22,899 nt of DNA from a virus. Each line of letters opens with the position of its first letter. Positions within the stretch are counted from its first letter, which is position 1. The position numbers and the translations under genes are program-made. Shown piece by piece: positions 1 to 17,842 of this stretch. The notes beneath the pieces were generated by a model. That model had not been told where the DNA came from. It was given only the letters and a program-made list of their open reading frames with translations, and made no database searches. Where the stretch lies: the IMG/VR virus record IMGVR_UViG_3300028361_000131, positions 1 to 22,899 of that record; one strand, given 5' to 3'.

Positions 1-483
1 CACATAGTGTAGTCTATGTTTGATATCAGCAATTGTGCCGTCAATATCACAGACCACAACATCTCCCTCTACTTTCTTTAGACCATACTGAATGGCCATG
101 TTGTTAATAACGTCAGCACCAACACTCTTTTCTCGTTGTTGGTCTCTTAGTATACACGTTTCTACATCTGTGTCAACCTTCTCGATTGAGAACTTGGCTT
201 GAAGTCCATCAGCAACCCGTCTCCACATCTCTTCGTTCGCTGGATTAAGGTTACAGTCATCAATGATGACGTGCTCAATGCCACTGTTAATCAAGTGCTT
301 GACAAGAGTAATCTCTGCTGATACCACAGACTTCTCGTTCTTTCCTGAGTATACACCGTAGTTAAACATCTCTCTTAGCAGGTCACGGTTGACCCTCGCT
401 ACTAGCTTATGTGTACACAAAGCACTAGCTACTGTGCTCTTCCCTGAGGCTGGAAGCCCCCTCATCATTATGATTTGTTTCAT
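1..483 (-). CDS. pseT: Polynucleotide kinase / 3'-phosphatase, T4 Pnk type (3' end cut off by window)
   Basis: Repairs broken RNA or DNA ends: the N-terminal kinase phosphorylates 5'-OH ends and the C-terminal HAD domain removes 3' phosphates, giving ends a ligase can seal. The 161 visible residues start MKQIIMMRGLPASGKST, with a P-loop at about 9-17. VNRD near 31-34 and DDCNLNP near 75-81 match the T4 enzyme's layout. The HAD nucleophile motif DIDGT is at 146-150, just before the window ends, so most of the phosphatase domain lies outside. The start overlaps the stop of the 52-residue gene before it (ATGA), which suggests coupled translation. An RNA ligase is two genes upstream, as expected for an RNA-repair pair. 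The assignment is strong; the missing C-terminus is the only gap. Confidence 0.9.
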   Translation of the reverse strand, partial: MKQIIMMRGLPASGKSTVASALCTHKLVARVNRDLLREMFNYGVYSGKNEKSVVSAEITLVKHLINSGIEHVIIDDCNLNPANEEMWRRVADGLQAKFSIEKVDTDVETCILRDQQREKSVGADVINNMAIQYGLKKVEGDVVVCDIDGTIADIKHRLHYV

Positions 484-638
484 AAGCTTTTCTTTACTAT
501 GGTCTTTCGGTAAGTAATATATACTACACCCGCTTTTGATTTGGTCTCTCCTCTAGTGTATACCTCAATGTGAGTGACATTGTTTGTCTTAACCTTTTTG
601 TTAAGTCGTCTCTGAGTTCGTGCTCGGTTCTTGTTCAT
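480..638 (-). CDS. Small basic protein, 52 residues, unknown function
   Basis: The protein begins MNKNRARTQRRLNKKVKTNN and is rich in Lys and Arg, so it may bind nucleic acid; that is inference from charge only. A start further upstream at 701 is possible, but it would run inside the RNA ligase gene. The start at 638 lies 2 bases past the ligase stop and fits the tight packing of this operon. Its TGA stop overlaps the ATG of the kinase gene. It sits between two RNA-repair genes, so a role linked to RNA ends is possible, but no family was recognised. Confidence 0.6.
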   Translation of the reverse strand: MNKNRARTQRRLNKKVKTNNVTHIEVYTRGETKSKAGVVYITYRKTIVKKSL

Positions 639-640
639 AA

Positions 641-1642
641 CTATTCTGTTACTCGACAATCTACACACTGACTTGTGTGCACATCTTCTCCTGAACCACA
701 CTCGACACAGATTGTTTTATCTGCTACGCTTATCGTTCCTAATAATATATCCTTGTAGATTTGGATAGCTTTCCTGTTAGCTAGACCTGCTAGTGACCTA
801 AAGTTTAAGGCTGGTACTTTCTTGGCGATAGCCCACACCTCCTCTGTTAGCATGTCATGATACACTGTGTTGGCAATGCGTGGGATATGCTTGAGGTCTA
901 ACTTCTCTTCTGTCTGAGGCTGTAACTTCTGCATTACTTTCTGTACCCGTGCCAGTGTGATGTACTTGTTCACTACCCACATCTCATGGTAAGTCTCGCT
1001 ATGCTTATTGTTGCCACCGAATGTAACAGCACTGTTCTCTTGGAAGTTCTGACTTACAATCTTAGCATAGGTGTTGTCACCAAACTTATCAATGAACCCT
1101 TCGTTCTTAAGCACGATACCCTCACCCTCTTCACCAATGGTAGACTTACCAACGAACACCATGAGTTGTTCAGTGGTAGGGTTAGTAAACATGCCGTGGT
1201 AGGCTGGGGTGTTAATACCAAACCTCTTAGCGGTACTGATTACATTCGCCTTAGATAAACAAGTCTCCTTATCTTGGGTACTCACAAAAGAAATATCAAA
1301 TAGATAGAACTGATGAAAGCTTGTCTCTGTGTAGTGAATAGTATGCTTGACAAGCCACTCACCGTAGAGTCTAAGGTTGGTGTTCTCTGTCAAGAGTTTC
1401 TTTATACCCTCATGCCCTGCTACATACTCAAGAAAACCATTGAAGTAATTGTTACCCTCTACTGGATTCATCACGTCACTACACAGTGTGTTGTTACGTG
1501 AACCGATGGCAATCTTACCATCCTCTATCCATATCTGTGCATTAGCACCGTCAATCTTTTCCTCTACGTGTACATCACCTTCTAAGATACCGTCTGTCTC
1601 TTCCTTACCTAGACGATGTATCTTAGGGTATCGTTTGAACAT
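641..1642 (-). CDS. rnlB: RNA ligase, Rnl2 type, with C-terminal zinc ribbon
   Basis: ATP-dependent ligase that seals 3'-OH to 5'-phosphate ends. Nucleotidyltransferase motifs are in order: motif I EEKIDGANA with the adenylated lysine at 29, SRNN at about 48-51, LYGEW at 92-96, FYLFDI at 112-117, EGIVLKN at 174-180 and YAKIV with Lys194. The DGANA form of motif I is typical of the Rnl2 (T4 gp24.1) family. The length of 333 residues is close to T4 Rnl2. The C-terminus carries two CxxC pairs (Cys312/315 and 326/329), which look like a zinc ribbon. I do not recall this from the T4 enzyme. Together with the kinase-phosphatase downstream it forms a pathway that could repair tRNAs cut by a host anticodon nuclease; that target is inferred. 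Confidence 0.92.
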   Translation of the reverse strand: MFKRYPKIHRLGKEETDGILEGDVHVEEKIDGANAQIWIEDGKIAIGSRNNTLCSDVMNPVEGNNYFNGFLEYVAGHEGIKKLLTENTNLRLYGEWLVKHTIHYTETSFHQFYLFDISFVSTQDKETCLSKANVISTAKRFGINTPAYHGMFTNPTTEQLMVFVGKSTIGEEGEGIVLKNEGFIDKFGDNTYAKIVSQNFQENSAVTFGGNNKHSETYHEMWVVNKYITLARVQKVMQKLQPQTEEKLDLKHIPRIANTVYHDMLTEEVWAIAKKVPALNFRSLAGLANRKAIQIYKDILLGTISVADKTICVECGSGEDVHTSQCVDCRVTE

Positions 1643-2139: not shown

Positions 2140-3057
2140 TTAAATCATTTCGTTAAAGACTGATACGTATGCGTCTAGTGTGTCAGTGTTACCTAGTCCA
2201 GGTGCACTGTTTACTTCTAGTACGAACACATCACCCTCGTTGTCCATAATAATATCTACTGCTCCAAAGTCTAGGCCAAGAGCTGAGATAGCTTCTATAG
2301 CCAGGTCTTCGATACGTTCTAGTCGGTTAAGATTACCTGTTCGGTAAATCCAATTAGACGCTAGGTTACGTACGTCTGCTTCTTCTCCTTCTGCGGTGAC
2401 TACCTCACCGTCCTCACCTACTCGTCGTGACTTCTTCTGGTAAAGAATAACCTCACCATCAAACACATGTACCCGATACTCTCCTTTGTTTGATACACCT
2501 GCTGTGTATAGTGGAGCAATAGGTAAGGGTAGTGTGGCTGCTCTCGTCTGTGGTTGTATAGAATCAGTCCTTCTAGTAACTATGTCTGCAAGATGGTCTT
2601 CTGAAGCCCCTCTTAGTTGCATTGTGATGTTGCCAAGGAGAGCACGTTTTGCTATTTCTCCCTCAGTTAGAACAAGTGTAGCACTGGGCTTAAACACCTC
2701 AATGCCTGCACCACTATGACCATTGAGTTGATGACGTGCGTACACTTGTGTACCTTCACGCAACCATTCTTCTGCTTCCTGTCGGTCTGTTGTGAAGGGT
2801 ACTGCTGGTACATCACGCTCTTGTAGGTTCTGTAGAGTAGTCAGCTTGTTAGCTGCTACTGCTACTGCACTAGGAGAGTTAAGAATATCAACACCCTCTA
2901 GGCTAGGAGGAACTTGTGAGTTACCCCAGTTAATAACAATGTGACCTGGGCGGTATCGGTAACGTGAGTTCTCTGTTCTAATAACTACACCACCAAGAGC
3001 TAACTTCAAAGCCCGTGCTGATTGTGAACCTGTTTTGTATGGTAAGATTTTAAACAT
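2140..3057 (-). CDS. ATP-grasp ligase (RimK-like)
   Basis: ATP-grasp enzymes use ATP to activate a carboxylate as an acyl phosphate and join it to an amine or thiol. The 305 residues show the expected order: a pre-ATP-grasp region, a glycine-rich loop GHSGAG at 113-118, EYRVHVFDGEVI at 193-204, and the C-terminal metal site DFGAVDII...VLEVNSAPGL with Asp268, Glu281 and Asn283. This is the pattern of the RimK/D-Ala-D-Ala ligase superfamily. The substrate cannot be read from sequence. It shares the left arm with a glutamine amidotransferase, two amidoligase-type proteins and a gamma-glutamyl cyclotransferase homologue, so a role in peptide or glutamyl-amide synthesis is inferred. It is the first long gene behind the leftward promoter at 3130-3158. 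Confidence 0.88.
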   Translation of the reverse strand: MFKILPYKTGSQSARALKLALGGVVIRTENSRYRYRPGHIVINWGNSQVPPSLEGVDILNSPSAVAVAANKLTTLQNLQERDVPAVPFTTDRQEAEEWLREGTQVYARHQLNGHSGAGIEVFKPSATLVLTEGEIAKRALLGNITMQLRGASEDHLADIVTRRTDSIQPQTRAATLPLPIAPLYTAGVSNKGEYRVHVFDGEVILYQKKSRRVGEDGEVVTAEGEEADVRNLASNWIYRTGNLNRLERIEDLAIEAISALGLDFGAVDIIMDNEGDVFVLEVNSAPGLGNTDTLDAYVSVFNEMI

Positions 3058-3059
3058 AT

Positions 3060-3122
3060 TTATTTCTCTAGTATTATGGCGGTAGCCAGTAGCATTAAAG
3101 CGATGATTACTGCGTATAACAT
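3060..3122 (-). CDS. Single-pass membrane peptide, 20 residues
   Basis: The frame encodes MLYAVIIALMLLATAIILEK, an almost uniformly hydrophobic segment of membrane-spanning length. It ends 2 bases before the ATP-grasp start. The promoter just upstream places the likely transcription start within about a base of the ATG, so the peptide would be translated from a nearly leaderless message. It may anchor or regulate something, or it may be only a short open frame in the 5' end of the message. Confidence is moderate because of size. Confidence 0.45.
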   Translation of the reverse strand: MLYAVIIALMLLATAIILEK

Positions 3123-3129
3123 TATTTAT

Positions 3130-3158
3130 ATTGTATCATACTTGAACTTAAAAGTCAA
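3130..3158 (-). promoter_or_regulatory. Leftward sigma-70 promoter for ATP-grasp/RNA-repair operon
   Basis: On the minus strand, TTGACT (3158-3153), a 17-base spacer and TACAAT (3135-3130). The predicted start is near 3123, next to the ATG at 3122. It lies back to back with the plus-strand promoter at 3222-3250. Confidence 0.7.
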
Positions 3159-3221
3159 GCATATTATTTGTAAGGCTTTTACCTAGCAACAGGTCAGTTA
3201 TAGTCAGGATGACACTACCCC

Positions 3222-3250
3222 TTGACAAAAATACAATAGTATGATATACT
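3222..3250 (+). promoter_or_regulatory. Rightward sigma-70 promoter for structured RNA A
   Basis: TTGACA (3222-3227), a 17-base spacer and TATACT (3245-3250). The predicted start is near 3257. No plus-strand gene follows; the next about 400 bases hold only hairpins, so the promoter most likely makes a non-coding RNA. Confidence 0.75.
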
Positions 3251-3256
3251 AGTATT

Positions 3257-3650
3257 CTGTCCTTTGATTAGGAATAGGGAAACAATTATCGAGGGCGTAG
3301 AATCTACTACATAATCTGTGAGACACCACAACCCTAAGTCTTATGTCGTCGCTTACTTGGGTGACATAAGGCACCGCCATGTTCTTCGGAACGGAAAGCT
3401 TAGACCACAGGTTATATCACTATACCTGTACTGTACGGATGGCCGTTAGCAGGAGAGTCTATTCAAGTAAGAAGTATATCTCAGTAACTCATTTTACACC
3501 AGCCAGAATACATTCTGATTCAGTAATGAATCATCCCGAACCATAGTGATAACATAATAGTGGTACTATCAACCTTCCCCTCGTCTCTGACGAGGAAAGA
3601 AGTGTACCTAGATAATCTATAATACCCAGCCAGAATAAGGTAGTCACGGT
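3257..3650 (+). ncRNA. Structured non-coding RNA A, about 390 nt, class unknown
   Basis: This gap follows a strong plus-strand promoter and contains no convincing gene. Stems seen on the plus strand: CTTATGTC/GACATAAG (3340-3347/3363-3370); GTTC-TTCG-GAAC, a C(UUCG)G tetraloop (3381-3392); ACAGGT-T-ATA/TATACCTGT with a TCAC loop (3407-3429); ACGG/CCGT (3435-3446); CAGAA/TTCTG (3504-3517); CCTCGT/ACGAGG (3579-3595); ATAAGGT/ACCTTAT (3635-3662). A 12-base direct repeat CCAGCCAGAATA lies at 3499-3510 and 3626-3637. Either copy could pair with TATTCTG at 3253-3259, which would close the molecule. The 3' end is not defined; no hairpin with a T-run was found, and transcription runs toward the end of the convergent gene at 3652. 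No match to tRNA, tmRNA or RNase P was recognised by eye. Confidence 0.6.
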
Positions 3651-3651
3651 A

Positions 3652-4119
3652 TTAAACCTTATACTTACTAATAATATCATCAACAGGTAGAGAACACGCA
3701 TTGATACACACCTCACCACGTGATGTTTCTTTCCAGTCATTGAGTGGACGATGAAGTGACTCACGTTCACGCTTCTCTAGGTGACGCTTCTTCATAGTCT
3801 TCTTGATATTGTCGTTGGTACTGTCACGTCTGGTGTTGCGTGGTCTAACTTCAAGAGCAGAGGATGGGTCTTCAAACTCGTTAGCCATGTCATCCATACG
3901 CAGGAGAGATTCACCCCTCAATCTAATTGCTCTAAGGCTTGCTGCTTGGGACTGAGTAAGCCCCTCTGGCACACGCCCACTGTGTGTGTTGTAATAGTGT
4001 TGTAGTTTCTCTTGCTGTATTGCGTACTTGGCTGTGTCCCTCATTGAAGTTCCGCTGTGTAGGTTCAACCACTCTGCCACTCTCTCTGCTTCTGCTGGTG
4101 TCCAATCCTCTGGTCTCAT
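3652..4119 (-). CDS. Unknown protein, 155 residues, after the amidotransferase
   Basis: Begins MRPEDWTPAEAERVAEWLNL, a helical acidic N-terminus. The middle is rich in Ala, Arg and Glu and a strongly basic stretch lies around 90-120 (TMKKRHLEKRERESLHRP). Two cysteines occur near the C-terminus (CINACS). No known family was recognised. Its ATG overlaps the TGA stop of the amidotransferase (ATGA), so translation is probably coupled and the protein may be a partner of that enzyme. Its 3' end faces structured RNA A on the other strand. Confidence 0.7.
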   Translation of the reverse strand: MRPEDWTPAEAERVAEWLNLHSGTSMRDTAKYAIQQEKLQHYYNTHSGRVPEGLTQSQAASLRAIRLRGESLLRMDDMANEFEDPSSALEVRPRNTRRDSTNDNIKKTMKKRHLEKRERESLHRPLNDWKETSRGEVCINACSLPVDDIISKYKV

Positions 4120-5423
4120 ACTCTTTCATGCTTAATTGAATTTTGGTAATCCTCTAGCTCCACACATAACTCCATAACCTCTTGCATCTCGTCTTCTGAT
4201 AGACCAAGGGAGGACATAGTATCTTCTAAAGCGTCCTGCTGACTCTCGATACCCTCGTCTAGTTGCTTGAAGGTGCTCTCTGATATGTATCCCTCTATCC
4301 TACTGACGTGCAGCTTCTCTCTCTTGGTCTGTAGCTGTGCGTGTTGGGCTGCCATGCTCTCTAGTCTACGCCTAGCCCCTTCACTTTGTTCTGTTGTCAT
4401 CTCGAAGTCTGACTCAACTTCTGGTGCTTTTAACCCCATCTGTTGGGGTCTTTCTAGTGGCATACGGCTGGCTCTGTATGCAGCGTAACGCTTTGGTACG
4501 TAGTAACACTGGTGGTCGATGAACTCCACGGCGAAGGCTGCGTCTGCTAGTCCAGTCTCCTTCATCTCAGGGAAGGTGTAATATTTATTTTGCAACTGTC
4601 GGTGCTGGTTACGGTGCACCTCTCTCTCTAACTCAGTCAGAAATCTTGAACTCTTTACTGGTACGAATGTCTTGCTCTCATCAATGGGGAAACCCTGCTC
4701 GTAAAGAACAGAGTCACCTGTATCGTAGCTATAGATAAGCATAGGAGAAATGAGACTGCTGTGCTCTGATGATACACCCTCGTACTTCTTGTGGCTCACT
4801 GTGCCCAGTTCTCTACCATGATTGCGACCATAGTATACTGACACTACTTGGTCAGTACCCTTGACTAGTCGCACACCCCAGAAGGCAGCAGGGCCAAAGG
4901 TTCCTACCTTGTCTGACTTGTCCTCTAGGTGACGTGCTAACTCTATAGCAAGACTCTCAGAGTCGTTGTGTTCTAGTCCCTTGCCTTCTATTACCTCCCT
5001 TGTGTCGTCACGGTACGTGGCAATGACCTGCTTGTTGAACTCCGTATGGTAGTCATAGCCGTCTGCCTTATGGTTCTTCTTAAGGATGTCTGTGTTGTGT
5101 ACTTTACCGTTGTGGGCAAAGTAGTAATCAAACTCAAGCTCCTCATTGCTAACAAACATAGGGTGTGTCGTACCAAGTGTGTTCTCTGTAGATGTAGGGA
5201 AGCGGTGGTGAAATAAAATCATAGGTGCTGTCTCTTTAAGCAGCAGCTTTTTAATCTCATCCTCTGTCTTAGCACGTTGTACGCTAACCAAGTTCATAGC
5301 ACCGTCGATAGCTAGATAGCCATACCCCTTTGTGCCACGTGTCGATTGCTTTTTATACAGGTCAAACACCTGTTGTGCTACTGGTCTGTTTCTTTTAGAC
5401 CACAGTGCTACTAATCCACACAT
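4116..5423 (-). CDS. Class II glutamine amidotransferase (Ntn hydrolase) with C-terminal coiled coil
   Basis: Hydrolyses glutamine to ammonia for amide synthesis, or acts as a related amidohydrolase. The N-terminus MCGLVALW puts the nucleophile Cys at position 2 after Met removal. Family motifs follow: RGTKGYGYLA at 29-38, HHRFPTS at 72-78, FAHNGKVHN with the oxyanion Asn105-Gly106, and NDSESLA near 155. These match the glutaminase domain of GlmS and PurF. No sugar isomerase or PRTase domain follows; instead residues from about 345 to 425 are charged and coiled-coil-like (AQLQTKREKLHVSR). The partner that uses the ammonia or glutamyl group is probably among the neighbouring amidoligases. It starts 3 bases after the amidoligase gene stop. 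The domain call is firm; the substrate is unknown. Confidence 0.88.
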   Translation of the reverse strand: MCGLVALWSKRNRPVAQQVFDLYKKQSTRGTKGYGYLAIDGAMNLVSVQRAKTEDEIKKLLLKETAPMILFHHRFPTSTENTLGTTHPMFVSNEELEFDYYFAHNGKVHNTDILKKNHKADGYDYHTEFNKQVIATYRDDTREVIEGKGLEHNDSESLAIELARHLEDKSDKVGTFGPAAFWGVRLVKGTDQVVSVYYGRNHGRELGTVSHKKYEGVSSEHSSLISPMLIYSYDTGDSVLYEQGFPIDESKTFVPVKSSRFLTELEREVHRNQHRQLQNKYYTFPEMKETGLADAAFAVEFIDHQCYYVPKRYAAYRASRMPLERPQQMGLKAPEVESDFEMTTEQSEGARRRLESMAAQHAQLQTKREKLHVSRIEGYISESTFKQLDEGIESQQDALEDTMSSLGLSEDEMQEVMELCVELEDYQNSIKHERV

Positions 5424-5426
5424 AGT

Positions 5427-6449
5427 TTATTTAACTGTTATACCTGAGTAGTACCCAAGTAATCTTTTAACGTACATCTCTAACATCTCATCATCAAGGA
5501 ACTTCACAAACTCTTCGGGTGTGCCCTTCATAGACTTGAGTTCTTCAAACTCCAAGGTCTCAAGTTTATCTGCGATTGCCTGGTGCAATCGTAACCAAAG
5601 GAGCACCTTACCCGCGTCTGTTGTGCCACCGTGAGAACGAATCTCTAATGTGCCGTGTCTGTCCCAATAACAATGCAGGTTTACATTATGATAACGTGAG
5701 TTATCGTAGTGACCTGTCTGCCCTCGCCCTTTGTACCACACCCGCTTCAAGTCTTCTTCTGTCTTTATTGCTGCGATGTCACTGAGTTCATATGACTCAC
5801 CAAGAGGGATACAATACATGTTACCAAACCTTCGTGAGTTAGATACAATATTCTCCATCACACCAGAGAACAGGGTGTAGAAGTAGAATGAATTCTTAAG
5901 CCACTGCAATCGGTCTGGCTTTTCTAGGTAGTAGTATGTGTAGTTGACACGTGGCTTACGCATCAGCTCAGCTCTTGAGAAGTATACTACGTTACCAAAG
6001 TGTGCTGTCTTTATGGTAGAGTCATCTATAATGGTTTGGTTCTGCAACAGGTTCATAATGTTTGGTATTCCGAGGTCTTTCTTAACCCTACTAGAGAAAG
6101 CAAACACCGTACCCTTATAGCTTGGCTCTGAACGTGATGACTTTAACACACCACCTACATCCTTCTTACCATCAAGGTGTATGTGCATGGATGTCTTAGC
6201 GTTATCACATGTGGCACCATTCTTCTTTAGAGTCTCACATGCAAACTCTACTGCACGCTCACCTTCCTCACCTGACAGTGGCTCTGATACCCACTCACCC
6301 GCATGTTTTAGTGGCCGTAATGAACCATCCTCTATCACCTCTATAGACTGTCTGATTCTTGTCAGTGCGTCACCTGTAGGTGCTACGAACTCAATCTCTA
6401 CACCGAACCTACGATTAGACTGTATCATCATGGTATAAGTTATTGTCAA
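5427..6449 (-). CDS. Putative amidoligase, Amidoligase_2 family
   Basis: Glutamine-synthetase-like fold family predicted to form amide bonds. Visible marks are FGVEIEFVAP at 15-24 (metal-binding acidic pair), DGSLRP near 41, EPLSGEEGERA near 56-66 and SMHIHLDG at 87-94, the His-x-His pair typical of the family. The 340-residue length fits. The start at 6449 overlaps the upstream gene by 35 bases; in-frame ATGs at 6431 and 6428 would shorten the overlap and place GVEIE closer to the N-terminus, as is usual, so the true start may be there. It lies between another amidoligase-type gene and a glutamine amidotransferase, which supports a shared pathway. No member's substrate can be deduced here. 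Confidence 0.85.
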   Translation of the reverse strand: MTITYTMMIQSNRRFGVEIEFVAPTGDALTRIRQSIEVIEDGSLRPLKHAGEWVSEPLSGEEGERAVEFACETLKKNGATCDNAKTSMHIHLDGKKDVGGVLKSSRSEPSYKGTVFAFSSRVKKDLGIPNIMNLLQNQTIIDDSTIKTAHFGNVVYFSRAELMRKPRVNYTYYYLEKPDRLQWLKNSFYFYTLFSGVMENIVSNSRRFGNMYCIPLGESYELSDIAAIKTEEDLKRVWYKGRGQTGHYDNSRYHNVNLHCYWDRHGTLEIRSHGGTTDAGKVLLWLRLHQAIADKLETLEFEELKSMKGTPEEFVKFLDDEMLEMYVKRLLGYYSGITVK

Positions 6450-7431
6450 TCATGCGTTCAAACCCTCGTGCTCCCCCTACCATCTTTCTCTCCCAACTTT
6501 CGTATGTTTTTCCCATAGTGTTGCAGAATTTAAGCGGCTCGTCTGAGGTCAACCACTTTCTTGTTGATACCAGCCTCTCAGTACCAAGTCCGTTACCAGT
6601 AGCTCTATTTATAGTAAGGAACTCAGAAAGGATGTCAAAGTTTTTAAGAGCCAGCTCGTAGTCATTATTGTTAATGGCCTTCTTCACATCCTTCATGGAT
6701 ATCATAGACATCAGTTCTTTGTCTCTGTTCTGCTCTACTATGGCCATAGCGTTGCGACACAACTGACTGGCAAAAGACCACAGTGCGTAGTGTTTCAACC
6801 AGAAGTTACTAGGTACACGGTACTCTAGTCCGTATGACTTAAGACGATACTCACCAGCTCGACCATAGTTCTTTCGTCGTACTGCATTGAGTGGGTCACG
6901 GTCAATAAGAACCAGTGTGTTGCCTGCTACAATATCCAACGTCTTTACAAATCTCTCTGCTAACTCTTGGTCTGTACGGTTAGTTCTAAGCATTGTGTTA
7001 CCAAGGTGAATGTGTCCAGCACCAGCTCGGAACCTCTCTCTCAACCCAGTCACACGATGTGGGTTTTTTTCTTGGGCACTAAGTGTTGGGTTACAACCAA
7101 ACCTCTTCATCTCTGGTGAAGCTTTCTTCCACACCTCGTCACTAATGATGTGACCAGGTTCAAAGCTAAGCTCTGCTCCTACTTCTCTGGCGTAACCTCG
7201 TGCGTTAAAGATTGCTCTCGCAAGAAAGCTACCTGCTGATACACGACAACCTGACGGTGCTGGGTGTAACTCACCCTGGAAACCATCACGTGCTACATTT
7301 CGGGAGTTTTCAGGGAGTACCTCAGCACTGGGGACTACCTCACCGTCTCTGATAAAGAAGAACTCAGGGTCTGACCCTACTGTACCCCTCGGCCCGAAGT
7401 ATAGGTCTAATGAACTATCACTTTTACTCAT
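6415..7431 (-). CDS. COOH-NH2 ligase type 2 family protein (phage amidoligase)
   Basis: Predicted ligase joining a carboxyl to an amine, related to the glutamine synthetase fold. The 338 residues contain GSDPEFFF at 19-26, GELHPAP near 53-59, AGAGHIHLG at 136-144 with the His140-x-His142 pair, and the conserved block RRKNYGRAGEYRLKSYGLEYR followed by VPSNFW. I recognise this set from phage-encoded COOH-NH2 ligases. It follows structured RNA B by 18 bases and overlaps the next amidoligase gene. Its His-x-His and acidic motifs parallel those of the next gene, so the two may act in sequence on one product; that is inference. Confidence 0.85.
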   Translation of the reverse strand: MSKSDSSLDLYFGPRGTVGSDPEFFFIRDGEVVPSAEVLPENSRNVARDGFQGELHPAPSGCRVSAGSFLARAIFNARGYAREVGAELSFEPGHIISDEVWKKASPEMKRFGCNPTLSAQEKNPHRVTGLRERFRAGAGHIHLGNTMLRTNRTDQELAERFVKTLDIVAGNTLVLIDRDPLNAVRRKNYGRAGEYRLKSYGLEYRVPSNFWLKHYALWSFASQLCRNAMAIVEQNRDKELMSMISMKDVKKAINNNDYELALKNFDILSEFLTINRATGNGLGTERLVSTRKWLTSDEPLKFCNTMGKTYESWERKMVGGARGFERMIDNNLYHDDTV

Positions 7432-7449
7432 ATTGTTTTATTATATTTT

Positions 7450-7696
7450 AATGTACACCTAACTACACTTCCGTCACCAGAAAGTAATAGGGTTATTCTT
7501 AGTCCTTTGCATTTGGCTGTATACGAAGAGTGACCCAACAATACTCAGGAGAATCTGCACGCGACTCGGTTTACATGCGAGCGTATCTGGGACTTCTGCC
7601 AAACTGACATAGTGTCCACGGCACTCAACTGTCTCGTTTTCTACCCACTACCTTCTTAGGTGTATCACTACACAGAAGTATAGTTAGGTGTACATT
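7450..7696 (-). ncRNA. Structured RNA B closed by a 22-bp helix, class unknown
   Basis: The gap between the cyclotransferase and COOH-NH2 ligase genes begins and ends with 22-base arms (7450-7471 and 7675-7696) that are complementary at 21 positions. The one exception is a G-U wobble if the minus strand is the RNA, but a C-A mismatch on the plus strand, so the minus strand is favoured. Inside the helix, GTGTA-GTGA-TACAC (7660-7673) makes a GNRA-type tetraloop on the minus strand only. TTTGGC/GCCAAA and AGTCC/GGACT pairings could cross as a pseudoknot. The element fills nearly the whole gap, 8 bases after one gene and 18 before the next. It could be a processed RNA or a structured spacer controlling the downstream genes. 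No T-run follows, so it is not a simple terminator. Confidence 0.6.
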
Positions 7697-7703
7697 CTGC
7701 TAA

Positions 7704-8054
7704 CTAATAACTACTAATAACTTCTTTTGCTTGCTTACAATAACTCTCTAGTCTCTCCCCTGCAAAGTACACTAGTGCCTTCACAGTCTCACCGTTCACT
7801 TCAAACTCTCGCTCTAACTCTACGTACCCTGCACCAATCTCCATCCTATTGATAGAGAAGTATTCTTCGGGTGGCAACTCATACAATTCTACATCATGTA
7901 CGTCTTCACCTGTAGTGAGTAGTGCTGGGTATGCACTTACTGCATACATAGTACCTACAATAGTAGAGTTACCAACGTGCTTACAATTCTCTATACCACC
8001 GTGATTGTACTTTCCTTTCTTCAAACTACCGTATACTGCTACTGTCTTTAACAT
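7704..8054 (-). CDS. Gamma-glutamyl cyclotransferase-like protein (AIG2/GGCT fold)
   Basis: This fold typically releases 5-oxoproline from gamma-glutamyl amines, cutting gamma-glutamyl amide bonds. The N-terminal signature VAVYGSLKKGKYNHG at 5-19 is the substrate-binding loop. The central strand-rich region and NRMEIGAGYVEL place the probable catalytic acid at Glu72. Its 116 residues match the compact AIG2/BtrG-type family. In this cluster it is the natural counterpart to the amidoligases: one group makes glutamyl-type bonds and this one may remove a protecting glutamyl group, as BtrG does in butirosin synthesis. That pathway analogy is inference. It starts 3 bases after the 119-residue gene stop. 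Confidence 0.85.
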   Translation of the reverse strand: MLKTVAVYGSLKKGKYNHGGIENCKHVGNSTIVGTMYAVSAYPALLTTGEDVHDVELYELPPEEYFSINRMEIGAGYVELEREFEVNGETVKALVYFAGERLESYCKQAKEVISSY

Positions 8055-9468: not shown

Positions 9469-9504
9469 CTTTATATTGTTTATTCTTTAATAATACCGTG
9501 TATT

Positions 9505-10620
9505 GTACACGTTACATGCTAGGATAGGTTTATAGGTACATTGTGTTACTTATATGCTACAGGAGAATATTAAGTACGGTATTTTTTCAATCCTTTTTAC
9601 TGTTAAGGTTTAACAGTCCTAGCGTGTAACGTGTAGCCCAGTTTTGGAAACTGAGCTTGCACGTTTTTGATTATATATAGCCCTCCCTTACACATTCTCA
9701 CACGTAACGCGGTGACTTTTACCACCGCATGTTTTTATGGACGTGCTACACTCTGTAAAGTATTTGACTCACAGTGCTCATGACTCGTCCAAAGGCCGTT
9801 CGGCACTCAGTTTACCACTAAGTCGCGGTCACGTTTCACTAGTCTATACAGTAAGTACTAAGCTATATATGTTTTTTGTTTATACTTTAATACTAAGATT
9901 GTGCCATGTTACAAATCGTAAACTATAGTACGTTTCACCTGTTAAGGTGCTCAGTACTGTATAAGCCAAGGCGTACCGCTGCTAGTAGCTCACTCTTCTA
10001 GTGGCTTGTTTACTCGCTGGCGTGTACCCTAGTAGACACAATGTATATAAAGTGTATCAAGTACTCTTTAATGTATTGTATTAAGGTATAAACTATCCTC
10101 ACCCCGTGATTTGCTACCCTGGCACACAAAGCCTTTTCAATAGCTTGTATACATTGCCTGGTACGGTTCGATGATTTGGGCATGTTATACAGTAGCCCAC
10201 TGTTATATATAAGACTATGGCTTGCAATGGTTAAAGTGTACTATTCTTGGCTACAATCCTCGCGCCTGGCGTACTTCTAAAGCTATTTTCTAAAGGCTTT
10301 TATAGGTACGGCGTGAATAATCTCACTAGAATTTTGTATACTTTCTTCTTGCTAGGCGTGGCTATTCACCGCGCCTACTTTGTCTATTTGGTTTGCCAAG
10401 CTGGTCACGTTGCTTTTCTTGACTGTCACCATTCTAGCATGGAATTTTTCTCTTGTAACTATGCAGGAGTGGTTTTCTGTGTTGTAGTTTTTAACTGTTC
10501 GATAGGGGGCAAACTACGTGCCACGATACGATATACAGTACACGGTACTGTATACCATAGTACTAGCAAGGTATTTGCTGGTACTAGGTACACACTACAC
10601 TAGTCTTCTATACTTTACAA
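9505..10620 (+). ncRNA. About 1.1-kb non-coding region with dense hairpins, probable large structured RNA D
   Basis: No credible gene lies between 9469 and 10631. Plus-strand pairings include 9506-9524/9617-9635 (19 pairs); ACTGTTAA/TTAACAGT (9599-9617); GCGGTG/CACCGC (9709-9728); a helix 9845-9863/9949-9963 with a 4-base bulge, enclosing CACC/GGTG; AAGCCA/TGGCTT (9963-10007); CTTTAAT/ATTAAGG (10066-10086); ACAGT/ACTGT (10189-10203); GGCGTGAATA with TATTCACCGCGCC (10310-10375); TATACAGTAC/GTACTGTATA (10532-10554); and AGTACTAGCA/TGCTGGTACT (10559-10585). At least four imperfect helices contain U-G wobbles on the plus strand that would be A-C mismatches on the minus strand, so the plus strand is favoured. 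It may be one large RNA or several. No clear promoter was found, and the class is unknown. Confidence 0.45.
9628..9668 (+). terminator. Possible intrinsic terminator or attenuator hairpin
   Basis: A long hairpin (9628-9665, loop TGG) is followed by TTTTT. Its 5' arm overlaps the 3' arm of the helix 9506-9524/9617-9635, so the two folds compete. The T-run is short, so termination is plausible rather than certain. Confidence 0.35.
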
Positions 10621-10631
10621 GTGACAAACTG

Positions 10632-10973
10632 TTAAATTTGTGTTATAAGTGAATTTGCTTCAAGTAAGGCCTGTATTCTGGCGGTCATACGGTATTCTGG
10701 CTCATTCTCTACCAGTATCTCTTCAGTACGTAGCGTAACCCAGGCACGAGTGAGACATTCATAATCGCACTTGATAGTATCAGACTTTACAACGGTATAC
10801 TCGTGCTCGTTTGCGAACACTGGTAATACTATTGCATAGCTGAAGTTTTGCCAAGCTATTACCGTTACAAGTGTTGCAATGATGATTATAGAAGGGTTCC
10901 TATAGAACACACTGCTAGTGACATCACGCTTAACTCGCACGGCCTTACTTACTACAGTTTTAAAAGTACTCAT
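10632..10973 (-). CDS. Membrane-anchored or secreted protein, 113 residues
   Basis: A basic N-terminus (KAVRVKRD) is followed by a hydrophobic segment at about 27-54 (NPSIIIIATLVTVIAWQNFS), consistent with a signal anchor. The remaining about 60 residues would lie outside the membrane and contain Cys69 and Cys73 (KCDYEC). The end is acidic then helical (RIQALLEANSLITQI). It is the first gene of useful size behind the leftward promoter at 11108-11136. A surface role such as superinfection exclusion is possible but unsupported. Function unknown. Confidence 0.7.
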   Translation of the reverse strand: MSTFKTVVSKAVRVKRDVTSSVFYRNPSIIIIATLVTVIAWQNFSYAIVLPVFANEHEYTVVKSDTIKCDYECLTRAWVTLRTEEILVENEPEYRMTARIQALLEANSLITQI

Positions 10974-11107
10974 TTTTATGTTTGGTTATCTTGTAACTCC
11001 ACATAACTTACTCACCTGCTAAACATCATACAGGAAAGAAAACAAAGCACAAGTCCCAAGCCATGAGAATACCCACAATTCACATTATACGGCTATAAAT
11101 AAGGCTT

Positions 11108-11136
11108 ATTACAACACAATCCAGGCGGTCAGTCAA
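11108..11136 (-). promoter_or_regulatory. Leftward sigma-70 promoter for the left arm
   Basis: On the minus strand, TTGACT (11136-11131), a 17-base spacer and TGTAAT (11113-11108). Start expected near 11101, giving a leader of about 130 bases before the ATG at 10973. A second TATAAT lies at 11089-11084 without a good -35. Confidence 0.55.
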
Positions 11137-11207
11137 GCAATTAACACAGTAGAGACAAAAGAAAACACCACACTGTATAGCATGGTGTCTCTTGGTAGTA
11201 CTAGCAG

Positions 11208-11318
11208 CTAGTCTATGCAATAGAACATGGTCACATATTGATATGTATTTATGTCACCCCGTGCCAGTGCCTTGTCTAGTCCTGCTACTAGTCTCTCCCT
11301 CAGTGTTGCCTTGCTCAT
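11208..11318 (-). CDS. Small protein, 36 residues, unknown function
   Basis: The frame encodes MSKATLRERLVAGLDKALAR and ends GDINTYQYVTMFYCID. A basic amphipathic helix followed by an aromatic tail gives a gene-like composition. It lies alone between the leftward promoter region and the tandem repeats, and the nearest gene downstream starts at 10973. A regulatory peptide is possible; no family was recognised. Confidence 0.5.
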   Translation of the reverse strand: MSKATLRERLVAGLDKALARGDINTYQYVTMFYCID

Positions 11319-11354
11319 AGTTATATATGGTTACTGATAACTAACTACACTTTC

Positions 11355-11399
11355 TCACGTATCTCTCACCCTGTCTACTAGTACCTGTGCATAACTCAT
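11355..11399 (-). CDS. Possible 14-residue peptide
   Basis: A frame MSYAQVLVDRVRDT just upstream of the 36-residue gene has coding-like composition but is short enough to be chance. It ends in TGA, a stop otherwise seen here only in ATGA overlaps, which counts against it. Confidence 0.2.
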   Translation of the reverse strand: MSYAQVLVDRVRDT

Positions 11400-11402
11400 C
11401 TT

Positions 11403-11441
11403 ATAAGTATACATCATAAGTATATCTCATAAGTATACCTG
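11403..11441. repeat. Three tandem 13-base repeats
   Basis: ATAAGTATA recurs at 11403, 11416 and 11429 with an exact 13-base period. On the minus strand each unit reads TATACTTAT, close to a -10 box. They could be repressor sites, iterons or stacked -10 elements. A further pair GTATATACACC at 11456 and 11479 has a 23-base period. Confidence 0.6.
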
Positions 11442-11899
11442 TATAGTATCATTATGTATATACACCACCCCTTCTATAGTATATACACCCCTCCCCCCTC
11501 ACTCGTTAAAAGAATTGCAAACACAATGCCCCATGATTTCATTCACACAATGCAGCGTTTGTCAAGGTTGACTGCACAGATATGTGTGGTGTAGTTATGT
11601 CACAGTTCCCTGTTTTGTCAAGGGTGGGGGTATGGGGGTCAGGCGCTGTGTGTATATGTATAGCTACCCCACAAATATTTTGTAACTTTTTTTGAATTTG
11701 TTACTTAGCTTTACGATTCTGCTAAAAATGATATAAATCTTTTTATCAATCAGTATAACTTTCACATCCCTTAAAAAGTACAGGAGTACTGGGGGTCACA
11801 CACCGTCTCACAGGCTCAGCAAGGGGGCACCACTGGTTTTAAATATCAAACAGGTACAATGTATCATCTTGCCCTAATCCGCCGCTTAGAACAGAGGGC
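11442..11899. other. Gene-free control region, possible replication origin
   Basis: No gene was found here. It holds a C-rich tract (11486-11498), a G-rich tract with runs at 11622, 11626 and 11634, a repeated GGGGGTCA (11634 and 11791), an A/T-rich stretch about 11670-11760 with GTAAC/GTTAC inverted arms, and the hairpin AGTAC-AGGA-GTACT near 11779-11790. A minus-strand TTGACA at 11621-11616 with ATAACT 17 bases on is a weak promoter candidate. Repeats plus an A/T-rich patch between divergent arms is the usual setting for an origin; this is inference. Confidence 0.3.
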
Positions 11900-11928
11900 T
11901 TGACAAGATTTAAGTTGTATGTTATAAT
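11900..11928 (+). promoter_or_regulatory. Rightward consensus sigma-70 promoter for the virion module
   Basis: TTGACA (11900-11905), exactly 17 bases, then TATAAT (11923-11928): a full consensus match. Start expected near 11935, about 65 bases before the first gene of the right arm. Confidence 0.85.
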
Positions 11929-11940
11929 GATTCAACTTAT

Positions 11941-11979
11941 GTAAGCAGCAATGCTGTTTACTTTTAAATAATAAGTAAA
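11941..11979 (+). promoter_or_regulatory. Leader with two overlapping hairpins
   Basis: GTAAGCAGC/GCTGTTTAC (11941-11961) and TTTACTT/AAGTAAA (11957-11979) share bases 11957-11961, so only one can form fully. This lies in the 5' leader before the terminase genes. Regulatory switching is possible but unproven. Confidence 0.35.
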
Positions 11980-12000
11980 ACAAGTAGTTCACTACAAATT

Positions 12001-16861: not shown

Positions 16862-17842
16862 GTGAGTTCTATATTTGAAAAGCGAACTAATCTAAAGCCA
16901 TCTGAGTACCCAGAACTATTAGAATACACCGATGCTATTCGGCATTCTTACTGGGTTCACTCAGAGTTTAACTACACATCAGACGTAAACGATTTCTATT
17001 CCAACATAACTCAATCAGAGAGAAGCGCTATCACCAAGACAATGCTAGCTATCTCACAGATTGAAGTTGCTGTAAAAGGATTTTGGGGAGACGTTTACAA
17101 GAAGATGCCTAAGCCAGAGATAGGTTCTGTAGGGGCTACGTTTGCAGAATCAGAGGTAAGACATGCAGACGCATACGCAAACTTGATTGAGCTGCTCGGA
17201 CTTAACTCTGAGTTTGCAACCATCAATGAAGTACCTGCGATAAAGAAAAGAGTAGAGTACCTTGACGATACAATCCGTCTTGCTCACTCAGAAACAAACG
17301 AGGATTACATCAAGTCAGTTATCTTGTTCTCAGTATTCATTGAACACGTATCTCTCTTTTCTCAATTCCTAATCATGATGGGATTCAACAAGTACAAGAA
17401 TCAATTCAAAGGAATTAGTAACGCTGTTGAAGCAACCAGCAAGGAGGAACAGCTACACGGAATGTTCGGCATAGAGCTGGTCAATATAGTCAAGAAAGAA
17501 AACCCTGAGTGGTTTACAGAAGAACTAAGCCAGGAGTTACTTGTCGCTTGTCACAAGGCCTACGATGCAGAGAAAGAAATAGTAGAGTGGATACTGGAAG
17601 AAGGAGAGCTAGACTTCCTAAGCAAGGAAGAGATACTAGAGTTTATCAAAGATAGATTCAACAGGTCTGCCTTAGCCCTTGACTTCCCACAGCCATTTGA
17701 AACAGACATAAAAATCCTAGAGGCAACCGATTGGTTCGACACTGAAGTGCTAACAACCAAGCACACAGACTTCTTTTATAAGAGAAGTACGAACTACAGT
17801 AAGAAGCTTGCACCAGTTACATCAGCAGACCTGTTTGACTAA
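16862..17842 (+). CDS. nrdB: Class I ribonucleotide reductase beta subunit
   Basis: Houses the dimetal site and radical for making deoxynucleotides. Ligands appear in the usual order: Glu68 (SQIEVAVKGFW), Glu98-x-x-His101 (ESEVRHADAY), Glu161 (VFIEHVSLF) and Glu196-x-x-His199 (EEQLHGMFG). Tyr105 sits in the radical position, four residues after His101. The first ligand is Glu where many class Ia/Ib enzymes have Asp. The length of 326 is nearer NrdF than E. coli NrdB. The C-terminus ends acidic (SADLFD), as needed for docking to alpha. The start is GTG, with AAGG 7 bases upstream, one of few Shine-Dalgarno-like sites here. Its place inside the virion operon suggests late nucleotide supply. Confidence 0.93.
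   Translation: MSSIFEKRTNLKPSEYPELLEYTDAIRHSYWVHSEFNYTSDVNDFYSNITQSERSAITKTMLAISQIEVAVKGFWGDVYKKMPKPEIGSVGATFAESEVRHADAYANLIELLGLNSEFATINEVPAIKKRVEYLDDTIRLAHSETNEDYIKSVILFSVFIEHVSLFSQFLIMMGFNKYKNQFKGISNAVEATSKEEQLHGMFGIELVNIVKKENPEWFTEELSQELLVACHKAYDAEKEIVEWILEEGELDFLSKEEILEFIKDRFNRSALALDFPQPFETDIKILEATDWFDTEVLTTKHTDFFYKRSTNYSKKLAPVTSADLFD

Follow-up and report, generated by a model that had tools for sequence, protein, structure and literature searches.

Which product would a phage make with five families of enzymes that form or cut amide bonds, and do the genes for these enzymes belong together? The question is raised by the leftward early arm of a 22.9-kb virus record (IMG/VR record IMGVR_UViG_3300028361_000131, positions 1 to 22,899; hereafter the window), a genome fragment whose rightward late arm encodes terminase, portal, and capsid proteins. 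An earlier reading of the same DNA, made from its sequence alone (hereafter the original prediction), had described these five genes as one cluster. The best explanation of the locus as a whole, to which we assign a probability of about 0.85, is that the cluster is already known: it is a slimmed-down member of the amidoligase cassette of lytic phages represented by phiEco32, LUZ24, and RIO-1.

The enzymes and the cassette to which they belong

In the order of transcription, the leftward arm contains the following genes, and the catalytic motifs of all five enzymes are intact.

7704..8054, minus strand: gamma-glutamyl cyclotransferase (GGACT/AIG2-like), from PF06094 and solved UPF0131/AIG2 proteins
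6415..7431, minus strand: COOH-NH2 ligase of the phiEco32 type, from PF14395, phrog_3815, an AlphaFold2 model, and Foldseek
5427..6449, minus strand: Amidoligase_2, from PF12224, an AlphaFold2 model, and Foldseek
4116..5423, minus strand: class-II (N-terminal nucleophile, Ntn) glutamine amidotransferase with a divergent C-terminal half, from GATase_6, the family profile, and catalytic residues
3652..4119, minus strand: clade-specific partner of 155 amino acids (aa), with a start overlapping the amidotransferase stop (ATGA) and about 50 conserved C-terminal aa
2140..3057, minus strand: RimK-like ATP-grasp ligase, from phrog_2599, Pfam RimK/YheCD, and a profile comparison with RimK structures

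Profile searches against Pfam and PHROG confirmed the five families at the positions where they had been proposed. The cyclotransferase matched PF06094 (GGACT) at 5.5e-13, its profile matched the solved UPF0131/AIG2 proteins, and YGSL and Glu72 are conserved. The COOH-NH2 ligase was identified by PF14395 (2.7e-10, over the cut-off) and phrog_3815 (3e-35), and Amidoligase_2 by PF12224 (1.2e-21). The motifs DPE/HxH/EYR of the former and ExE/HxH/ExR of the latter are kept, and their residues are invariant among relatives. The COOH-NH2 ligase also has a C-terminal extension that was not found in the aligned reference phages, and the true start of Amidoligase_2, judged from its relatives, is probably the ATG at 6431. 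For the amidotransferase, the score of Pfam GATase_6 (4.5e-5) was slightly under the cut-off (23.9 versus 27 bits); its identity was nevertheless accepted because its family profile hits structures of PurF and GlmS (1e-22 to 1e-18) and because Cys2, Arg74, and the His-Asn-Gly at 104-106 are invariant among relatives. The ATP-grasp protein matched Pfam YheCD and RimK over the cut-off (2e-6 and 4e-5, respectively) and phrog_2599 at 2e-79, its family profile matched structures of RimK alpha-L-glutamate ligase at 3e-11, and ExR and ExN motifs are kept in the alignment of its relatives. The R2K clade of ATP-grasp enzymes is defined by two conserved lysines in the RAGNYA domain and, in R2K.3, by ExGD replacing ExN; here the R2K_2 and R2K_3 models stayed under the cut-off, RimK and YheCD scored higher, and ExN is present, not ExGD.

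No solved relative of either amidoligase family was found by sequence; one weak hit, to a designed repeat protein, was set aside. Both proteins were therefore modelled with AlphaFold2 from viral-contig alignments, giving a mean predicted local distance difference test (pLDDT) of 89.8 for the COOH-NH2 ligase and 91.8 for Amidoligase_2. With Foldseek, the COOH-NH2 ligase model was nearest to gamma-glutamylmethylamide and glutamine synthetases (E 4e-5, probability 1.00, template modelling score (TM) ~0.4), and the Amidoligase_2 model to YbdK and glutamine synthetases (best YbdK E 9.5e-4, probability 0.99, TM ~0.4). Nearly every match listed for the two models belongs to one superfamily. As modelled, both amidoligases are of the glutamine-synthetase/gamma-glutamyl-ligase fold, with a remote relation (TM ~0.4). 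AlphaFold2 and Foldseek confirm the amidoligase folds, a point on which the original prediction could have failed.

The original prediction also spoke of several ATGA or short overlaps between the genes, which was overstated: there is a single ATGA, at the junction of the amidotransferase and the 155-aa gene (4116-4119), and a single overlap of 14-35 nucleotides (nt), between the COOH-NH2 ligase and Amidoligase_2. The gene run is interrupted by two gaps, of 594 nt (3058-3651) and 272 nt (7432-7703). These gaps, and the mosaic nature of phage early regions, would fit the view that the five genes are adjacent by chance. Co-occurrence was therefore scored over 183 loci. The profiles for this came from the window, from relatives of it, and from named phages; alignments were used because scanning with single proteins had yielded few loci of close relatives. 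Among 56 COOH-NH2 ligase loci with at least 6 kb of flank on each side, the COOH-NH2 ligase, Amidoligase_2, the amidotransferase, and the ATP-grasp gene (the four core genes) were found together within 8 kb in 46, and all five including the cyclotransferase in 27. When 41 loci were selected by the ATP-grasp gene, Amidoligase_2 and the amidotransferase were present in 40, the four core genes in 30, and all five in 17. On the other hand, in 27 control loci selected by the window's ribonucleotide-reductase-like protein, the set was present only in two contigs, both of them the window's own relatives, and in 0/25 loci outside the window clade, a rough base rate because some control loci are short. 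Furthermore, out of 50,697 named phage records, matches to the COOH-NH2 ligase were found in 303 and to the ATP-grasp protein in 310, with nearly identical genus counts. An equivalent gene set was present in UFV-P2, Slicky01, Alcaligenes phage QDWS535, and ctwe8250, and the gene order is preserved within the window clade. A chance neighbourhood, extremely improbable in our estimate, is excluded by the co-occurrence test (46/56 and 30/41 versus 0/25). The relatives do keep these genes together, and the claim that they form one unit was borne out.

The amidoligase and COOH-NH2 ligase families reportedly originate from Iyer et al. in 2009, as cited by later papers. A "peptidoglycan modification cassette" of seven genes with these enzymes was described with phage PSA-HP1, and RIO-1, phiEco32, 7-11, PA11, tf, MR299-2, LUZ24, PaP3, and CW02 were named as its carriers (PMC5498523). 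The five enzymes are listed together in a 2025 paper (PMC11945000), and all of them were reported in the publication on UFV-P2 (PMC3890496). The window contains each of the five families: PF14395, PF12224, a class-II amidotransferase, a RimK-like ATP-grasp ligase, and a gamma-glutamyl cyclotransferase. The cluster seen in the original prediction is thus real, although the whole cassette had already been described, which its author did not know. Membership in a defence system was dropped, as PADLOC gave no match.

With the cassette of RIO1-like podoviruses (RIO-1 and PSA-HP1; also phiEco32, 7-11, PA11, tf, LUZ24, PaP3, and CW02) the window shares the five families and their grouping in one early-region cluster, whereas its gene order differs and it has in addition the 155-aa protein and, in one of the gaps, an RNA element. 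Many other cassettes contain a ~190-aa protein (phrog_4877), usually between the amidoligases, and a PuuD-type Peptidase C26; the latter was present in 26/56 COOH-NH2 ligase loci and 20/41 ATP-grasp loci. Neither was found in the window or in the related contigs L002, L003, L094, and L097 by locus profiles and whole-record searches (the record search for phrog_4877, negative in five related records, being without a positive control). In the window and these four contigs the amidoligase genes are near each other or overlapping, and the COOH-NH2 ligase bears the C-terminal extension described above. Since phrog_4877 is common and not universal, it was not counted as cassette-defining. In the LUZ24-like phage UFV-P2, ORF21-29 encode the COOH-NH2 ligase, Amidoligase_2, the amidotransferase, the ATP-grasp ligase, and an AIG2-type cyclotransferase within 6 kb, in the same order as in the window apart from the cyclotransferase. 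However, the proteins are only ~14-36% identical, and UFV-P2 additionally encodes gp22 (phrog_4877), a small protein of 72 aa, and an HNH gene product. The window carries a variant form of the cassette, known from a small clade.

The original prediction had suggested that the 155-aa protein, as a translationally coupled partner, may belong to the system. Its homologues (110-155 aa) follow the amidotransferase and share a conserved C-terminal half. No trusted Pfam or PHROG family was found for it, and in the profile scan of 183 loci it was confined to the window clade (~5 contigs); it is therefore not a general part of the system, and the proposal is weak. A role as a LysW-like carrier peptide was dropped since the C-terminal end varies across relatives. 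A protein of 72-77 aa (DUF7195) that follows the amidotransferase in other phages was also considered as its counterpart, and no relation was detectable.

Proposed chemistry and its acceptor

We hypothesize that the cassette most likely forms amide linkages of the gamma-glutamyl type on an acceptor in the cytoplasm and trims them. In this scheme the amidotransferase would release ammonia from glutamine or hand its amide on. The two synthetase-fold ligases would use ATP to activate a carboxylate, which is most likely the gamma-carboxylate of a glutamate, and couple it to an amine. The RimK-like ATP-grasp ligase would extend a carboxyl end by an amino acid that is probably glutamate, and the cyclotransferase would trim gamma-glutamyl groups as 5-oxoproline. 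In other cassettes Peptidase C26 would also remove such groups. The clearest hint of a gamma-glutamyl bond is that two unrelated enzymes removing this group, the cyclotransferase and Peptidase C26, recur in the cassettes. A ligase of the glutamine-synthetase fold is likewise combined with a gamma-glutamyl remover in PuuA/PuuD and YbdK-type chemistry, although the likeness in fold is remote and the window has the cyclotransferase in place of a PuuD-type enzyme. The substrate should be cytoplasmic, because the chemistry needs ATP and because no signal peptide was recognised by eye.

The leading published candidate for the acceptor is possibly correct: it is the peptidoglycan precursors, whose peptide stem would be changed during infection and thereby block superinfection or protect the envelope. 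Two later papers trace the idea of a role in the cell wall and in superinfection to Iyer et al. and to Hardies et al. in 2013 (PMC11945000, PMC10580990). Several points weigh against the scheme and this acceptor. No product, substrate, or phenotype of the cassette was reported in the literature found, and the Foldseek matches are remote (TM ~0.4), which makes the gamma-glutamyl specificity a prediction. By eye, no cell-wall gene recurs among the clustered neighbours, the frequent ones of which look like replication genes of the primase/polymerase type. The cyclotransferase was present in 31/56 COOH-NH2 ligase loci, so it is absent from about half of the cassettes and may be optional. A short peptide or glutamyl adduct, which the original prediction had proposed as the product, is plausible and fits the published predictions; product and target are themselves predictions. 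DNA, which it had named as one possible target, is unsupported, as no gene for base modification could be recognised in the window, and DNA base modification was dropped.

The same ligases may be read in another way, since the profile of the ATP-grasp family is nearest to RimK. RimK glutamylates ribosomal protein S6. The name of the PHROG family is S6 glutaminyl transferase, and ATP-grasp relatives of the R2K clade were predicted to be protein-peptide ligases (PMC4431377). The ATP-grasp ligase and the amidoligases would then tag a host or phage protein, for example of the ribosome or of transcription, with glutamate or other amino acids as a means of host takeover. This protein tagging would leave the free-standing cyclotransferase and Peptidase C26, enzymes of small gamma-glutamyl compounds, unexplained, and no conserved target protein was present in the neighbourhood; we regard it as unlikely.

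In a further reading, the product is itself a small gamma-glutamyl or peptide metabolite, such as a glutathione-like or protected-amine compound, or the cassette has an auxiliary role in nitrogen metabolism. The nearest folds of the amidoligases include ligases that join gamma-glutamyl groups to small amines (YbdK, gamma-glutamylmethylamide synthetase), and Peptidase C26 and the cyclotransferase act on gamma-glutamyl compounds. Moreover, a phage of Planctomycetes with similar genes was reported to aid growth on nitrate or ammonium, from which its authors proposed a role in nitrogen metabolism (PMC10945688). However, this growth effect was not linked to the cassette-like genes, and three ligases exceed the needs of a simple metabolite; we consider a metabolic role rather unlikely. 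Modification of a cytoplasmic acceptor with gamma-glutamyl-type linkages remains our preferred reading.

A candidate structured RNA in the 594-nt gap

The larger gap, which separates the ATP-grasp gene from the 155-aa gene, contains three further features.

3257..3640, plus strand: candidate structured non-coding RNA of ~385 nt with approximate ends, from conservation, RNAalifold, and compensatory changes
3222..3250, plus strand: promoter-like site facing the gap, the presumed RNA promoter (TTGACA-17-TATACT, extended -10, 11/12 matches)
3130..3158, minus strand: promoter-like site before the ATP-grasp gene (TTGACT-17-TACAAT, extended -10)

The core of the element is 79-80% identical in nucleotides to that of contig L002, likewise a fragment, whereas the five cassette enzyme genes are 57-67% identical; the exception to the low gene identity in this region is the RNA ligase gene (79%). 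In the alignment of the window with L002, RNAalifold gave z values of -4.8 and -4.6 on the two strands versus shuffled alignments, compared with 0 to -1.1 for coding controls of similar identity. All 55 of 55 predicted pairs in a 214-nt core are kept, seven of them by changes on both sides and none broken, and a control with slid partners gave 0 or 1 double-sided changes. The signal was comparative only, as folding of the single sequence was not significant (z -1.1 and -1.6). No Rfam family matched, RsaJ being a chance match, and a covariance-model search recovered the element from no sequence other than the window and L002, so the window-type RNA is known from two sequences. The plus strand is favoured because a C(UUCG)G hairpin is located on it.

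The plus-strand promoter-like site lies on the ATP-grasp side of the gap, and related sites were read by eye at the matching position in L002, L003, L094, and L097. Sequence related to the minus-strand site is also present at the equivalent position in the same four contigs, as read by eye from their gaps, while sites of this type are as numerous in the region as expected by chance. In L094 (9361-9835) and L097 (9401-9800), on the minus strand of the loci, the equivalent gap holds a second structured element, which is 73% identical between the two over ~250 nt with RNAalifold z values of -5.1 to -5.7, and which the covariance model of the window-type RNA did not match. It is reasonably likely that the clade carries a new structured RNA of ~385 nt with its own promoter on the opposite strand; with a differing element in two relatives, the site may regularly hold an RNA with a regulatory or serving function. 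The RNA appears to be the one feature of the cluster for which we found no earlier report, in literature that was not searched for it specifically.

Neighbouring genes and significance

Downstream of the cassette (1-1642, minus strand), an Rnl2-type RNA ligase (PF09414, 4e-23) stands beside a protein that looks polynucleotide-kinase-like by eye, and the two are likely an RNA repair pair; the identity of the ligase gene to L002 (79%) is unusually high. Upstream, a small protein at 10632-10973 (minus strand) has a hydrophobic stretch and a conserved C-terminal half (ARIxALxEANxLITQI) and is found clade-wide. The original prediction had suggested that small membrane proteins nearby may belong to the system; this one lies 2.6 kb away and is a neighbour at clade level only, which makes the suggestion weak. 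On either side of it, two stretches of ~1 kb (9470-10630 and 10974-12000) have no convincing genes and contain short blocks 68-80% identical to relatives. The late module includes a gene at 16862-17842 (plus strand), between the portal and capsid genes, that resembles by eye the ribonucleotide-reductase small subunit; relatives of its product, 58-78% identical, occur in 27 viral contigs.

In three other loci (L005, L006, and L009), the cassette lies within ~7 kb of genes annotated as nicotinate or nicotinamide phosphoribosyltransferases, with an annotated phosphoribosyl pyrophosphate synthase gene in two of them; salvage of nicotinamide adenine dinucleotide is a possible neighbouring function. 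The archaeon-binned contig L182 has amidotransferase, amidoligase, and COOH-NH2 ligase genes beside genes that by eye are phage-like (PhoH-, sigma-, RNase H-, and PurA/PurZ-like). It is probably from a large phage, a piece of which appears to have been binned with an archaeon, and so it was given no weight as an argument against peptidoglycan.

The cassette is carried by ~300 of the 50,697 named phage records and by many viral contigs; among its carriers are phages that infect well-studied strains of Pseudomonas and E. coli. Co-occurrence of its genes, the synthetase folds, and the recurrent gamma-glutamyl removers reduce the range of likely chemistry to amide bonds of the gamma-glutamyl type. 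Apart from this chemistry, which can be tested in laboratory phages such as LUZ24 and phiEco32, the RNA element is a lead of its own.

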